Assembly (NCBI RefSeq): GCF_005877005.1
Contig: NZ_SSNH01000007.1
Span: 186,001-250,000 of the forward strand
Source: Sinomonas susongensis
Lineage (GTDB): Bacteria; Actinomycetota; Actinomycetes; Actinomycetales; Micrococcaceae
Length of the DNA stretch: 64,000 nucleotides
Reading direction: 5' to 3'
Below the pieces are notes generated by a model. That model ran no database searches. It was given only the letters and a program-made list of their open reading frames with translations, and had not been told where the DNA came from. Shown piece after piece: positions 18,516-28,642 of the stretch. How positions within the stretch are numbered: the stretch's first letter is position 1; each line of letters opens with the position of its first letter. A program made the translations under genes and the position numbers.

Positions 18516-19611
18516 CAGGAGCCGAGCCGTCGCGCCGGAGGCGGAACTGCTCGATGGCCTCCTCGGCGGCCTCGAGCAGTGCCTGCGCCGAATGGTCCCA
18601 GCTGAACTTCTCCGCTTGTCTCGCTGAGGCACGAGACGCATCGCTCCACGTGTGCGGGACCTCGAGCTCGCGAACGGCTGCCGCGAATGCCTCCGGGGAG
18701 TCGGGGTCGACGAATCGCGCCGCCTTGCCGCCGACTTCGCGGAAGATGGGGATCTCGCTCGCGATGACCGGCGTCCCCACCGCCATGGCCTCGACGAGAG
18801 GCAGCCCGTAGCCCTCCGACCGGGAAAGGCTCACGAGAGCGGTCGCGCGGCGCAGGAGCTCCTCGTACTCGGCTTCGCTCACGCCCCCGTGGAACTCGAC
18901 CGAGGCGCCCGCAGGAACGCTCGCCTCGAGTTCCGCCCTGCGGGCCGGGCTGATGCGGCTGAGGAGGTGCAGGGTGTAGTCGGGCAGCCCAGCCATCCCG
19001 GCGATCACGGTCTCGACGTTCTTGTAGGGCATGAACGAACCCATGTAGAGCAGGCTGCGGTCCGGCTTCGCATCGGGGTCGCGGGGCGCCAGCCCTCCCT
19101 GGGGCGCATTGCCGATGATGCGCACGGGGCGGCTCGTGAGCTGCTTCTCCGCCATGAGCCACTTCGTCGTGCGGCTCACGGTGGCGACGACGTCGGCCCG
19201 GTTGAGGAGCATCCGCTGGGGCCAGTAGGCCTTGTGGTACAGGCGCCACAGCATCCGCACGGGGGCGGGCAGGAATCCGGGCGGCGTCGGGTGCTGGTAG
19301 TAGATCAGGTCGTGGAGCGTGAGGATCAGCGGGTAGCGGCGCCCCCACGAGCCCATCGTCTGCATGGGGCAGAACACCACATCCGGCTCGAGCCCGTTGA
19401 CGCGCGCGGCGATGAAGAGCTCGGCAGGGGAGAGGGGACTCGAGACCTTCACGTGGGGCACGTCGGGAAGGAGAGCGAGCTGGCGCTCATCGCTGATGAG
19501 CATCGCCGTCTCGGTGCGGGACGCGACGGCCTCGATAAGGCTCGCGCCGTACCGGCTGATCCCGTCGTGGTGGTCGGTCCGCGTGAAGCGGGCGTCGATC
19601 AGGAGCCTCAT
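18508..19611 (-). CDS. GT4-family glycosyltransferase
   Basis: 367 residues, no membrane segment. Two Rossmann-like halves: an N-terminal acceptor domain beginning MRLLIDARFTR with HDGISRY, and a C-terminal nucleotide-sugar domain with GSFMPYKNVE, FHGGVSEAEYEELLR and the retaining E-x7-E region SRSEGYGLPLVEAMAVGTPVIAS. Closest in kind to mannosyl/rhamnosyl-type transferases that build cell-surface glycans; donor and acceptor cannot be told. Its ATG overlaps the upstream hydrolase stop (ATGA), so it is the third gene of a minus-strand operon with an aldo/keto reductase and an alpha/beta hydrolase. Confidence 0.85.
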   Translation of the reverse strand: MRLLIDARFTRTDHHDGISRYGASLIEAVASRTETAMLISDERQLALLPDVPHVKVSSPLSPAELFIAARVNGLEPDVVFCPMQTMGSWGRRYPLILTLHDLIYYQHPTPPGFLPAPVRMLWRLYHKAYWPQRMLLNRADVVATVSRTTKWLMAEKQLTSRPVRIIGNAPQGGLAPRDPDAKPDRSLLYMGSFMPYKNVETVIAGMAGLPDYTLHLLSRISPARRAELEASVPAGASVEFHGGVSEAEYEELLRRATALVSLSRSEGYGLPLVEAMAVGTPVIASEIPIFREVGGKAARFVDPDSPEAFAAAVRELEVPHTWSDASRASARQAEKFSWDHSAQALLEAAEEAIEQFRLRRDGSAPAR

Positions 19612-24350: not shown

Positions 24351-25917
24351 GCCCACTTCAGGCGCGAGGGGCGGGGCCGCGCGCGCCGAAGCCGCGCCCG
24401 GCAAGGACCAGTTCGTCATGGCCATCGACCAGGGCACGACGAGCACGCGGGCCATCGTGTTCGACCGCGGCGGCTCGATCGTCTCGGTGGGCCAGCTCGA
24501 GCACGAGCAGATCTTCCCCCAGGCCGGCTGGGTCGAGCACGACCCGCGGGAGATCTGGGACAACACACGCGAGGTGATCGGACAGGCCCTCTCCAAGGCG
24601 AACCTTACCCGGCACGATATCGCCGCAGTCGGCATCACGAACCAGCGCGAGACGGCGGTCGTGTGGGACAGGACGACCGGCGAGCCGGTCTACAACGCGA
24701 TCGTCTGGCAGGACACGCGCACGCAGCCGATCGCCGACGAGCTCGCGGCCGACGGCGGCGTCGACCGCTTCAAGGCCACGGTGGGCCTTCCGCTCGCCAC
24801 CTACTTCTCGGGCACCAAGGTCAAGTGGATCCTCGACAACGTCGAAGGTGCCCGGGCCAAGGCCGAGGCTGGCGATCTCCTGTTCGGCAACACCGATGCT
24901 TGGGTCATCTGGAACCTCACAGGGGGAGTCGACGGCGGCATCCACGTGACCGACGTGACGAATGCATCCCGCACGCTCTTCATGGACCTCGAGACGCTCT
25001 CCTGGGACCAAGGGATCCTGGACGTCTTCGGTGTCCCGGCGACCATGCTCCCCGAGATCCGGTCCTCCTCCGAGGTGTACGGCACGGTCCACACCTCGCA
25101 GCTGCTCCGCGAAGTCCCCATCGCGGGGATCCTTGGCGACCAGCAGGCCGCGACCTTCGGCCAGGCTGCGTTCGCCAAGGGGGAAGCCAAGAATACGTAC
25201 GGCACGGGCTGCTTCCTGATCTTCAACACCGGGGAGGAGATCGTTCAGTCGAAGAACGGCCTCCTCACGACGGTGGGCTACAAGCTGGGCGAAGCGAAGC
25301 CGCACTATGCCCTCGAAGGCTCCATCGCCGTCGCGGGCTCTCTCATCCAGTGGCTGCGCGACAACCTCGGACTCATCCGGACGGCGCCGGAAGTGGAGGA
25401 GCTCGCCCGCTCGGTCAAGGACAACGGAGGCGTCTACATCGTCCCGGCCTTCTCAGGGCTGTTCACGCCCTACTGGCGGGCCGACGCACGCGGCACGATC
25501 GTGGGCCTCACGCGCTACGCCAACAAGGGACACCTCGCGCGGGCCGCGCTCGAAGCGACCGCGTTCCAGACGCGCGAGGTCCTCGACGCCGTGAACGCCG
25601 ATTCGGGCGTCCCGCTGAGCGAGCTCAAGGTCGACGGCGGGATGGTGGCCAATGATGCGCTCATGCAGTTCCAGGCCGACATCCTGGGAGTGGACGTCGT
25701 CAGGCCGAAGGTCATCGAGACGACGGCGCTCGGCGCAGCCTATGCGGCAGGACTGGCGGTCGGCTTCTGGGGCGACCTCGGCGAGCTTTCCGCGAACTGG
25801 GACGAAGACGCTCGCTGGAGCCCGCAGCTCGATCCCTCGGAGCGGGACCGGCTGATGCGCCAGTGGAAGAAGGCGGTCACGAAGTCGATGGGCTGGGTCG
25901 ACGACGACGTCCGCTAG
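24343..25917 (+). CDS. glpK: Glycerol kinase
   Basis: Phosphorylates glycerol with ATP, producing the GlpD substrate. 524 residues, about 20 more than usual because of a Gly/Ala-rich N-terminal tail before [15 protein letters not shown]. Other FGGY-family motifs: [28 protein letters not shown] and [18 protein letters not shown]. The ATG is supported by AAGGAG 6 nt upstream within the end of glpD. Followed by a 169-bp gap with regulatory structure before leuS. Confidence 0.95.
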
Positions 25918-25926
25918 GCCCAGGCG

Positions 25927-25974
25927 GGAGGATGCCGGGGCTGCGCTAGGATAGCGGTATGCACGGCATCCTCC
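25927..25974. repeat. Perfect 11-bp inverted repeat flanking the leuS leader promoter
   Basis: GGAGGATGCCG (25927-25937) and CGGCATCCTCC (25964-25974) are exact inverse copies with 26 bp between. In the glpK transcript they could form a terminator-like hairpin followed by TTCTTC. In DNA they bracket the -10 box of the leader and could be a binding site. Confidence 0.45.
25947..25952 (+). promoter_or_regulatory. -10 box for the leuS leader transcript
   Basis: TAGGAT fits the actinobacterial TAnnnT -10 consensus and ends 6 nt before an ATG, the spacing expected for a leaderless transcript. No good -35 is seen, which is common for this promoter class. Confidence 0.5.
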
Positions 25975-25985
25975 TTCTTCACTAG
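25959..25985 (+). CDS. Putative leucine leader peptide (8 codons, MHGILLLH) upstream of leuS
   Basis: ATG CAC GGC ATC CTC CTT CTT CAC TAG: three consecutive Leu codons preceded by Ile, in an 8-codon frame that would begin at or beside the transcription start. The stop codon is directly followed by a hairpin and then a Rho-independent terminator, ahead of the leucyl-tRNA synthetase gene. This is the layout of ribosome-mediated attenuation: low charged tRNA-Leu would stall the ribosome on the Leu run and change folding downstream. A clean antiterminator partner was not found by eye, so the mechanism is inferred. Confidence 0.5.
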   Translation: MHGILLLH

Positions 25986-26002
25986 CCGCTCCCAGCGAGC
26001 GG
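25986..26002 (+). promoter_or_regulatory. Hairpin immediately after the leader-peptide stop
   Basis: CCGCT (25986-25990) pairs with AGCGG (25998-26002) around CCCAGCG. Because it abuts the TAG, a ribosome terminating there would block it while a ribosome stalled at the Leu codons would not. Confidence 0.5.
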
Positions 26003-26004
26003 CC

Positions 26005-26027
26005 GCCCCTCCCTGCGAGGGGCTTTT
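26005..26027 (+). terminator. Rho-independent terminator/attenuator before leuS
   Basis: GCCCCTC (26005-26011), loop CCTGC, GAGGGGC (26017-26023), then TTTT. A perfect 7-bp GC-rich stem with a T-run, lying 60 bp upstream of the leuS start. It can end leuS leader transcripts (attenuator) or read-through from glpK, or both. Confidence 0.7.
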
Positions 26028-26086
26028 GTGTGTCAGGGGACGAATGCTGAGGGACGCCGAGGTGACGAACAGTGGAGAGAAGCAGG

Positions 26087-28642
26087 GTGAGCGAACAGCA
26101 GGGCACGGAGCCGAGGGCTGCAGGCGTGGCCGAGGTGGCCACGGTGGCGGATGCTGCGAACGCAGGGGCTGACGCCGTTTACAGCTTCGCTGCCATCGAG
26201 GCCAAGTGGCCTGCGGTATGGGAGAAGCTGGGCGTGTTCACGCCCAAGGACGACGGGAGCCGGGAGCGCCGCTACGTGCTCGACATGTTCCCCTACCCCT
26301 CCGGCGACCTCCATATGGGCCACGCGGAGGCATTCGCGATGGGTGACGTCGTCGCCCGCTACTGGCGCCTCCGCGGCTACGACGTGCTCCACCCGATCGG
26401 GTGGGACTCCTTCGGCCTGCCCGCTGAGAACGCGGCCATCAAGCGCAACGCGCACCCCGCTGAGTGGACCTACGCGAACATCGACACGCAGGCCGCCTCG
26501 TTCAAGCGCTACGGCCTGAGCCTGGACTGGTCCCGCCGGCTGCACACCTCCGACCCCGAGTACTACCGCTGGACGCAGTGGCTGTTCCTGCGCTTCTACG
26601 AGCGCGGGCTCGCGTACCGGAAGAACCACCCGGTCAACTGGTGCCCCAAGGACCAGACGGTGCTCGCCAACGAGCAGGTCGTCAACGGTGCTTGCGAACG
26701 CTGCGGCACTCTCGTGACCAAGAAGGCGCTCAACCAGTGGTACTTCAAGATCACCGACTACGCCGACCGCCTGCTCAACGACATGACCGCTCTCGAAGGC
26801 CACTGGCCGGAGCGAGTCCTCGCCATGCAGCGCAACTGGATCGGCCGCTCGGAGGGCGCGCACGTCGACTTCGCCGTCGAGCCGACCGGTGACGGGAGCA
26901 GGCCGGAGCGCAAGGTGACGGTCTTCACGACGAGGCCCGACACGCTCTACGGTGCTACCTTCTTCGTCGTCGCGGCCGACGCCGACCTCGCGACCGAGCT
27001 CGTGGCCCCCGAGGAGGCTGCGGCCCTCGCGGAATACCAGGATCGGGTCAAGGCCCTCTCCGAGATCGAGCGCCAGAACACCGACCGCGAGAAGACCGGC
27101 GTGTTCCTCGGCCGGTATGCCGTGAACCCCCTGAGCGGGGAGAAGCTGCCGGTGTGGGCCGCCGACTACGTGCTCGCGGACTACGGCACGGGGGCCATCA
27201 TGGCCGTCCCGGCGCACGACCAGCGCGACCTCGACTTCGCCCGCGCCTTCGGCCTGCCGGTGCGCACGGTCCTCGAGACCGGCGAGGAGGATCCCGTCGT
27301 GAGCGGGGTCGCGACCGCCGGCGAGGGAACGATCGTCAACTCGGGCCCCCTCGACGGACTGTCCAAGTCCGAAGGAATCGCGAAGGCCATCGAGATCGTC
27401 GAAGCCGCGGGGACGGGGGAGGGTACCGTCAACTACCGGCTCCGCGATTGGCTGCTGTCCCGCCAGCGGTTCTGGGGAGCACCGATCCCCATCATCCACT
27501 GCGAGGCGTGCGGCGAGGTTCCCGTGCCGGACGACCAGCTTCCGGTGCGCCTTCCCGACGACCTCCGGGGCGAGCAGCTTGCCCCGAAGGGCACCTCCCC
27601 GCTCGCGGCCGCCGAGCACTGGGTCAACGTCACATGCCCAAGCTGCGGCGGCCCGGCGAAGCGCGACACGGACACGATGGACACGTTCGTGGACTCGTCC
27701 TGGTACTACCTGCGCTATCTGTCGCCGGACTACACCGAGGGGCCGTTCGATCCGGAGGCCGCGAAGCGCTGGATGCCCGTCGCGCAGTACGTGGGCGGCG
27801 TCGAGCATGCGATTCTGCACCTGCTCTACAGCCGGTTCTTCACGAAGGTCCTCAAGGACATGGGCCTCGTCGACTTCGACGAGCCGTTCGCAGCGCTCAT
27901 GAACCAGGGTCAGGTGCTCAACGGGGGCAAGGCCATGAGCAAGTCGCTCGGCAACGGCGTCGACCTCGGCGAGCAGCTCGACCAGTTCGGCGTGGATGCT
28001 GTGCGCCTCACCATGGTGTTCGCCTCGCCCCCCGAGGACGACGTCGACTGGGCCGACGTCTCGCCGTCGGGTTCCGCGAAGTTCCTGGCGCGGGCATGGC
28101 GCCTCGGGCAGGACGTCACGAGCGAGCCCGGCGCGGACCCCGCGAAGGGCGACCGCGCGCTGCGCAGCGTCACCCACCGGACCCTCGCGGACGCCGTCGA
28201 ACTCCTCGAGTCACGCAAGTTCAACGTCGTCGTCGCCAAGGCGATGGAACTCGTCAATGCGACCCGCAAAGCGATCGACAGCGGGCCCGGGGGAGCCGAT
28301 CCCGCTGTGCGCGAGGCGGTCGAGGTCGTGGCGATCATCCTGAGCCTCGTCGCACCGTACACAGCCGAGGATCTCTGGGCGGCCCTCGGCCACGAACCGT
28401 CTGTGGCGAACGCGGAGTGGCCTGCGTATGATCCGTCGCTGCTCGTGGAGGAGACCGTGACCGCGGTGGTCCAGGTCCAGGGCAAGGTCCGCGACCGACT
28501 CGAGGTGTCTCCGGACATCTCCGAGGACGCTCTGCGCGAGCTCGCACTCGCAGCACCCAACGTGCAGCGCATCCTCGACGGCAGGGGCATCCGCACGGTC
28601 ATCGTGCGCGCGCCCAAGCTGGTGAACATCGTTCCCGCGTGA
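26087..28642 (+). CDS. leuS: Leucyl-tRNA synthetase
   Basis: Class I synthetase charging tRNA-Leu. 851 residues from the GTG at 26087, chosen for GGAGA 8 nt upstream; a GTG at 26072 would add 5 residues. HIGH-type motif HMGH (76-79) in [18 protein letters not shown]-type AMSKS (616-620), zinc-type CxxC pairs (CERC, CEAC, CPSC) and the CP1 editing domain with [12 protein letters not shown]. The first ~30 residues are a disordered Ala-rich tail. Apparently controlled by a leader-peptide attenuator. Confidence 0.97.

Follow-up and report, generated by a model that had tools for sequence, protein, structure and literature searches.

What, if anything, does the short sequence between glpK and leuS contribute to the expression of leucine–tRNA ligase (LeuS) in Sinomonas susongensis? 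We addressed this question in a window of 64,000 nucleotides (nt), the whole stretch of DNA that was analysed, taken from contig NZ_SSNH01000007.1, in which a first-pass annotation had read a leucine leader peptide and an attenuator directly upstream of leuS. According to our analysis, the element very probably serves the attenuation of leuS in response to leucine tRNA, and the explanation that best accommodates all observations, a leaderless leader-peptide transcription attenuator tying leuS to charged tRNA-Leu, is probably correct. What the analysis shows is conservation, covariation, a fixed geometry, and the absence of the signature that a classical antiterminator leaves in control sequences. 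The parts of the element and its neighbours are as follows.

Ending at 25917: glpK, the upstream neighbour (NCBIfam glycerol kinase)
25940 to 25952, + strand: extended −10-like promoter element GCTGCGCTAGGAT, with the hexamer TAGGAT at 25947-25952
25959 to 25985, + strand: leader open reading frame MHGILLLH and stop (ATG CAC GGC ATC CTC CTT CTT CAC TAG), read from the sequence, with a predicted leaderless start
25971 to 25979, + strand: control codons CTC CTT CTT, in Leu slots kept in relatives
25985 to 26003, + strand: hairpin 1, GCCGCTC-ccagc-GAGCGGC, whose first G also ends the TAG stop
26004, + strand: 1-nt spacer (C) between the hairpins, as read
26005 to 26023, + strand: terminator hairpin GCCCCTC-cctgc-GAGGGGC, 7 bp, from terminator scan and covariation
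26024 to 26033, + strand: terminator tail TTTTGTGTGT, as read
26074 to 26079, + strand: GGAGAG, likely the leuS ribosome-binding site, as read
26087 to 28642, + strand: leuS, leucine--tRNA ligase, GTG start (NCBIfam TIGR00396 leuS_bact, E 2e-290)

The order is thus glpK, GCTGCGCTAGGAT, 6 nt, leader frame, hairpin 1, a single C, the second hairpin, TTTTGTGTGT and leuS. This agrees with the annotated TAGGAT box 6 nt before an ATG, with the eight-codon frame carrying three Leu codons after an Ile codon, and with the 7-bp GC stem and T-rich tail ahead of leuS. The annotated hairpin after the stop is present too, but it does not merely lie behind the stop, whose G forms the base pair at the foot of hairpin 1. 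The stem at 26005 was matched by a terminator scan (two overlapping matches against 0.1 expected), which places an intrinsic terminator between the leader frame and leuS, where termination is predicted to occur. A two-box sigma-70 scan returned no promoter at the leader, a scan of the window with 4227 Rfam families at gathering score gave no matches, T-box included, and a tRNA search of the window found none. The sequence GGGCTTTTGTGTGT occurs a single time in the genome. Since the spontaneous folding energy of the whole leader is ordinary for its composition (z −0.64), the weight of the case lies with conservation.

Conservation and geometry of the leader

To follow the element into relatives, we looked for LeuS in the genomes of 15 congeners and of 197 members of the family, and every one gave a match, in a few cases a weak one. 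Loci were opened for the best-scoring matches only, which gave 34 with leuS (15 from the genus and 19 others), and in all 34 two hairpins could be seen by eye before the gene. From these, 33 family leaders, the window's own included and the identical row L019 dropped, were aligned (alignment A1) and used to build a covariance model, R1. In its own genome the model has one strong match, at leuS (E 5.3e-23), the next having an E of 0.22; the two further weak matches there (L057, L058) have no adjoining LeuS match. Counting matches of any kind, which mostly come without a check for leuS and some of which are ilvB or citramalate synthase (cimA) leaders, R1 is found in 111 of 197 family genomes and 20 of 32 genera (E ≤ 0.1), in 102 of 347 genomes of the order (E ≤ 0.1) and in 128 of 394 of the class (E ≤ 0.01). 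Where the adjoining sequence was checked for LeuS, all 11 loci from the order and all 25 from the class were positive. The framing of the element as one of Micrococcaceae is too narrow, as R1 also matches families outside the order, within the class.

An independent view comes from loci anchored on LeuS itself, namely the best 80 of 588 matched stretches, among which the closest named relatives of the window's LeuS are Arthrobacter and allies. Fifty of the 80 carry an R1 match (E ≤ 0.01), in every case upstream of leuS, and these include Arthrobacter, Pseudarthrobacter, Paenarthrobacter, Nocardioides, Marmoricola, Actinomadura, Nonomuraea and Streptosporangium. A leaderless-type, Leu-rich short frame is present in 34 of the 50 R1-positive loci against none of the 27 testable R1-negative ones (shuffled controls, 0.00 and 0.05 loci).

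For closer inspection we used an alignment, A2, of 100 leuS-linked rows, all distinct and chosen with no rule fixed beforehand. Left out were L019, L043, L049, L050, L052, L054, L081, L102, L126-L128, L134, L135, L137, L139-L141, L143, L146, L151, L178 and L188, as well as the weak matches L152, L155, L159 (Glutamicibacter) and L168 (Propioniciclava); the R1-found loci L059-L076 also lie outside A2. All counts over 99 rows given below refer to A2 minus the fragment L107.

Taking the distance from the first base of a codon to the first base of hairpin 1, the three control codons occupy slots −14, −11 and −8 (slots 1 to 3), which hold Leu in 92, 90 and 98 of the 99 rows. The first two slots vary synonymously (CTG 46, CTC 30 and CTT 16 at −14; CTC 46, CTG 27 and CTT 15 at −11), and the last is CTT in 94 rows, a codon that makes up only 19 of the 246 Leu codons (7.7%) in four long open reading frames of the window. 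In A1, the run is LLL in 25 of the 33 leaders and has at least two Leu in 31, with CTT in the third slot in 28. Just before the gene there is, in other words, a short frame rich in codons of the amino acid concerned, and one finding that would have refuted the first-pass annotation, a Leu run unconserved in relatives, is not what we see: peptide, terminator and leuS recur together while the Leu codons drift synonymously. At the foot of hairpin 1, 64 of the 99 rows have TAG in the stop slot and one has TAA; in the remaining 34 the frame extends 3 to 8 codons into hairpin 1, like that of Streptomyces lividans, MRAVRLLLSEPR. One-base toggles (TAG/GAG/CAG) set where the peptide ends, at the hairpin base (65 rows) or at least three codons inside it (34 rows).

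The columns T-A-n-n-n-T upstream of the frame are invariant in all 33 family leaders, and the start codon follows this hexamer after 6 nt in 82 of the 99 rows and after 7 nt in 15; the two exceptions are a row with 4 nt and L010, which has no start. A distance of 6 to 7 nt in 97 of 99 rows is the spacing that a leaderless start would need. The hexamer within GCTGCGCTAGGAT is presumably a −10 element, and transcription in the Sinomonas strain would then begin at the leader ATG itself.

Both hairpins are supported by covariation. Over the two helices of A2, 97.6% of cells are paired against 90.5 in shuffled alignments, 97 cells are changed on both sides against 21.6, and 10 of 14 pairs show a double change against 4.1, counts that kinship among the rows inflates and that the fitting of rows to the covariance model biases towards its structure. 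None of 500 shuffles attains the observed values, and in slid controls pairing drops to 39-66%. Hairpin 1 has 95.4% of its cells paired and 5 of 7 pairs changed on both sides, and in 98 of the 99 rows the lowest-energy fold includes its outermost pair; the terminator hairpin has 99.7% paired. The terminator tail is TTTTGTGTG in 38 of the 99 rows and TTTTTTGTG in 15. In the 33 family rows the tail TTTTGTGTGTC is near-invariant, though a plain T run would suffice; outside the family it is often TTTTTTGTG or similar.

The distance across hairpin 1 is constrained. The hairpin ranges from 18 to 63 nt in length, yet the two hairpins are separated by 1 nt in 89 of the 99 rows, by 2 nt in 8 and by 0 nt in 2; these rows were found and aligned with a model whose 1-nt spacer favours that gap (0 and 2 nt being accepted). 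With hairpin 1 folded, 8-10 nt separate slot −8 from the terminator in every one of the 99 rows; unfolded, the distance would be 27-72 nt.

Taken alone, the window would be compatible with there being no switch at all, the terminator, about 90 nt after glpK, serving that gene and the short frame being a chance or passenger feature. With the whole unit standing before leuS in many genera, the Leu codons drifting synonymously, the stems covarying and the layout recurring before ilvB and cimA, we regard this as highly improbable.

Two groups of relatives deserve separate mention. In Glutamicibacter (L152, L155, L159) the leaders are degenerate, with 0-1 Leu (MKPQ and a stop in L155), and hairpin 1 is altered while a terminator-like stem is retained; this lineage seems to be losing the switch. 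In L078, L085-L087, L119 and L123-L129 the leader precedes a divergent LeuS, about 40-43% identical to that of the window over the matched part, so that leader and synthetase type are not strictly coupled.

The same layout before other genes

Among the R1 matches, 20 further, second or weak ones were examined for the gene that follows, leuS being identified by tblastn and the others by eye, with an NCBIfam test on one ilvB and one cimA (L091). The genes are leuS in 6 cases, ilvB in 9 and citramalate synthase in 2, with nothing recognised in 3. Both citramalate synthase copies (L091 and L093, from members of the order), which belong to the isoleucine pathway, have ATT, an Ile codon, at slot −8. 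Their leaders, MAHKALLIT and MAHPALLIT, each followed by a stop, have GTG starts and the same architecture.

Within the genus, ilvB has the same leader layout in 15 of 15 genomes, as judged by reading and a pattern, with CTT (13) or GTT (2) at slot −8 and an AA spacer. The slot −8 codon matches the gene that follows: CTT for leuS (94 of 99 rows), ATT for citramalate synthase, and CTT or GTT for ilvB. In these genus leaders the codon stands 8 nt before a GCGCGTG/CACGCGC hairpin, followed by the AA spacer and a terminator. The ilvB leader of the window's own genome is MRTVSTDMVLTVVVLAKRVAY, just upstream of position 19299 of its contig C31 (L227), those of the congeners being L213-L226.

How the terminator might be switched

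In a classical attenuator, a stall would cover the left arm of hairpin 1, leaving its right arm free to pair with the left arm of the terminator in a 2:3 antiterminator. Such a device has been described, with antiterminator, for the leuS genes of two Streptomyces species (Seliverstov 2005, PMC1262725), and the ilvBNC operon of Corynebacterium glutamicum reportedly switches through an antiterminator overlapping the terminator (PMC11857589). We therefore folded the RNA from the leading edge of the ribosome, 12 nt from the A-site base, through the left arm of the terminator (arm 3), and measured the fraction of arm 3 already paired before arm 4 exists, using the trp, thr, leu and his leaders of Escherichia coli as controls. 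In these, arm 3 is paired to 0.71, 0.89, 0.67 and 0.62 at the best stall codon and to 0.00, 0.01, 0.01 and 0.12 at the stop, so that the excess of stall over stop is above 0.3 in four of four, while single control codons can be without signal (his H7 and H11-H13, 0.12-0.23; leu L17, 0.03).

The leuS rows behave differently. Mean pairing of arm 3 over the 99 rows is 0.04, 0.01 and 0.22 at slots 1, 2 and 3, exceeding 0.5 in 0, 1 and 6 rows, against 0.26 at the stop slot, where 15 rows exceed 0.5; referred to the true in-frame stop, the excess passes 0.3 in only 3 rows and the reverse is seen in 8. Placing the ribosome edge anywhere from 9 to 15 nt leaves slots 1 and 2 with no classical signature (at most 6 of 99 rows above 0.5), and the limit to this negative is slot 3, whose mean rises to 0.31, with 17 rows above 0.5, at an edge of 15 nt. 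For the window leader the values are 0.00, 0.00 and 0.48 at the three slots against 0.52 at the stop: a stall on the last CTT leaves 48% of arm 3 sequestered and a ribosome at the stop 52%, so the measure does not discriminate there. A very fast departure of the ribosome from the stop would lessen the weight of the latter value, and this, or a fold outside the energy model, is conceivable. Against an antiterminator also stand the distance of only 0-2 nt between arms 2 and 3, too close for a stable hairpin, and the Actinomadura leaders L183 and L187, in which hairpin 1 has changed (CCACG/CGTGG) and the terminator arm has not changed with it. We consider a classical attenuator unlikely, and the controlled comparison (3 of 99 leuS rows against four of four E. 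coli leaders) bears out the earlier impression, gained by eye, that there is no clear antiterminator.

Two other approaches were abandoned. With the stretch under the ribosome masked, the terminator stem has an equally high equilibrium probability in leuS rows (means 0.94-0.99) and in E. coli controls (0.90-0.97), and this measure is hence blind to a kinetic switch. A pairing of the Leu codons with the right arm of the terminator (CCUC/GAGG), considered by eye, was dropped, as these codons would lie under a stalled ribosome.

How could the Leu codons then act on the terminator? From the conserved arrangement we infer ribosome stalling, the direction of the response and a steric switch. Transcription would begin at the ATG, and a 70S ribosome would load on the bare 5' end and translate MHGILLLH. 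With plentiful Leu-tRNA it would reach the stop, where it would open hairpin 1 or depart, and the terminator would halt transcription before leuS; with Leu-tRNA scarce it would stall on CTC CTT CTT, the terminator would fail, and leuS would be transcribed. In the version that we favour, hairpin 1, folded between ribosome and terminator, would serve as a collapsible spacer, keeping the distance independent of its own length. Measured along the RNA, the A site of a stalled ribosome would then be about 9 nt away from the terminator for slot 3, 12 nt for slot 2 and 15 nt for slot 1, and the stalled ribosome and RNA polymerase together would leave no space for the terminator hairpin. The ribosome at the stop, by contrast, would open hairpin 1, lengthening the path to at least 21 nt if it opens fully, with less gain where a long hairpin opens at its base alone; after release nothing would obstruct, so that release and longer path would both favour termination. 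The five basal pairs of hairpin 1 have a mean probability of 0.97 with a stall at slot 1. For E. coli, a terminator stem is stated to need 10-15 nt of free mRNA separating it from the A site if it is to fold fully, and termination reportedly fell from about 90% to below 10% when the stop codon was brought from 28 bp to 5 bp upstream of a terminator (PMC4824070). If leuS is indeed attenuated in response to leucine, the spacer role of hairpin 1 is plausible, though we would put it somewhat short of even.

One could also speculate that the two hairpins form a bipartite terminator, stacking and terminating well only jointly, with a stall on the last CTT opening the base of hairpin 1. The 1-nt spacer and the constant distance from CTT to hairpin would be in keeping with stacking, a ribosome stalled there would cover 4 nt of hairpin 1 with a 12-nt edge, and the T tract of the window, TTTTGTGTGT, is weak. 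A ribosome at the stop codon, however, would open hairpin 1 even more and so cause read-through in replete cells unless release is fast, and the rows with the stronger T tract TTTTTTGTG retain hairpin 1 all the same. This arrangement, too, appears rather unlikely to us.

Several observations weigh against leucine-dependent attenuation by a leaderless leader with a spacer hairpin, or against parts of it. Eight of the 33 family leaders have no full LLL (LEL in three, and LSL, HSL, LNL, LCL and LRG), and the degenerate LRG leader, L010, has no in-frame ATG, GTG or TTG, with ATT at the start position. Thirty of the 80 LeuS-anchored loci, three of them with less than 150 nt upstream, have no R1 match, so leuS can do without the element; these include Kocuria, Rothia, Yaniella, Tessaracoccus, Cutibacterium, Thermobifida and Agromyces. 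The ilvB copies L090, L092, L096 and L101 have longer leaders without the exact layout; none of the 15 ilvB leaders of the genus has a TAnnnT hexamer where one would be expected, and a filter for leaderless-type leaders likewise passes 0 of 15. The spacing figures derive from E. coli, and their source also argues that in its own constructs slower translation raises termination near stop codons, the ribosome lagging behind (PMC4824070). The preference of the alignment model for a 1-nt gap belongs here as well. Finally, a ribosome whose A site holds the last CTT would reach 4 nt into hairpin 1, which makes an exact ruler less convincing: a stall at slot 3 would open these four bases and give a path of about 17 nt, so that slots 1 and 2 fit best.

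Relation to known leaders

The nearest known systems are in Streptomyces, where leuS attenuators, called classical, were predicted in S. coelicolor and S. avermitilis (Seliverstov 2005, PMC1262725), and where LeuL2 of S. lividans TK24 is reported to be leaderless, with a hairpin and U stretch before leuS (2021, PMC8079986). The Sinomonas element shares the Leu leader peptide and the hairpin with U stretch in front of the same gene. It differs in that the stop of leuL2 lies three codons inside the hairpin whereas the TAG of the window is at the hairpin base, and the antiterminator described for the Streptomyces genes is one that we do not detect in the present leuS rows. The LeuL2 peptide MRAVRLLLSEPR is exactly encoded in 8 of the 25 class loci, five of which align with the window leader in A2 and share its geometry; the element is an actinobacterial leuS leader of the leuL2 type.

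For ilvB of C. glutamicum and other Corynebacterium (the ilvB-II motif of ilvBNC), an attenuator has been tested and an antiterminator proposed (PMC11857589, PMC10272879). Common to both are a leader peptide for branched-chain amino acids in actinobacteria, a terminator hairpin and CUU among the control codons; in Corynebacterium the gene is another one, the proposed antiterminator overlaps the terminator and has been mutated, and the upstream open reading frame is described as covering most of the first stem.

The trp, thr, leu and his leaders of E. coli also place a peptide with control codons and a terminator before an operon, and differ from the leuS rows in the stall-dependent sequestration of arm 3 found above. 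They have Shine-Dalgarno sequences. In E. coli pyrBI, closely following translation prevents termination in response to UTP. The likeness to pyrBI, cited in PMC4824070, presumably lies in a nearby ribosome that itself blocks the terminator, no antiterminator being needed; here, the stalled ribosome would act through a folded spacer.

Among the papers listed by a literature search, judged by titles and the beginnings of abstracts, there is none on the element in Micrococcaceae, and leuS leaders are the subject only of PMC1262725 and PMC8079986; several others, such as PMC9413887 and PMC3896937, mention leuS, and PMC2965389 does not name it. The kind of element is thus already known, and what is new here is its spread, its fixed geometry and the lack of a detectable classical antiterminator, the last of which sets it apart as a variant of that kind. 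A study by Lopatovskaya from 2010, cited in PMC10272879, is said to deal with synthetase attenuators and may already list more leuS cases. A prediction for two Streptomyces species becomes a sharply defined RNA element, with a covariance model, across much of the class, and it hints at a way in which the supply of an essential synthetase could follow the charging of its tRNA in the absence of a T-box (none in the window). With more doubt, we suggest that it may represent an attenuator type free of antiterminators, in which a hairpin of fixed ends and free length is the ruler and the codon in a fixed slot (CTT, ATT or GTT) picks the amino acid for leuS, cimA or ilvB. If the spacer reading is true, attenuation could rely on distance and nothing else, and exchanging one codon in the fixed slot could change the amino acid that is sensed.

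A last observation concerns a record labelled Sporosarcina beigongshangi (L149, NZ_JADHDY010000020.1), which carries an Arthrobacter-like leuS (81% identity) together with the leader under the name of a Firmicute; the assembly is possibly misnamed or mixed.

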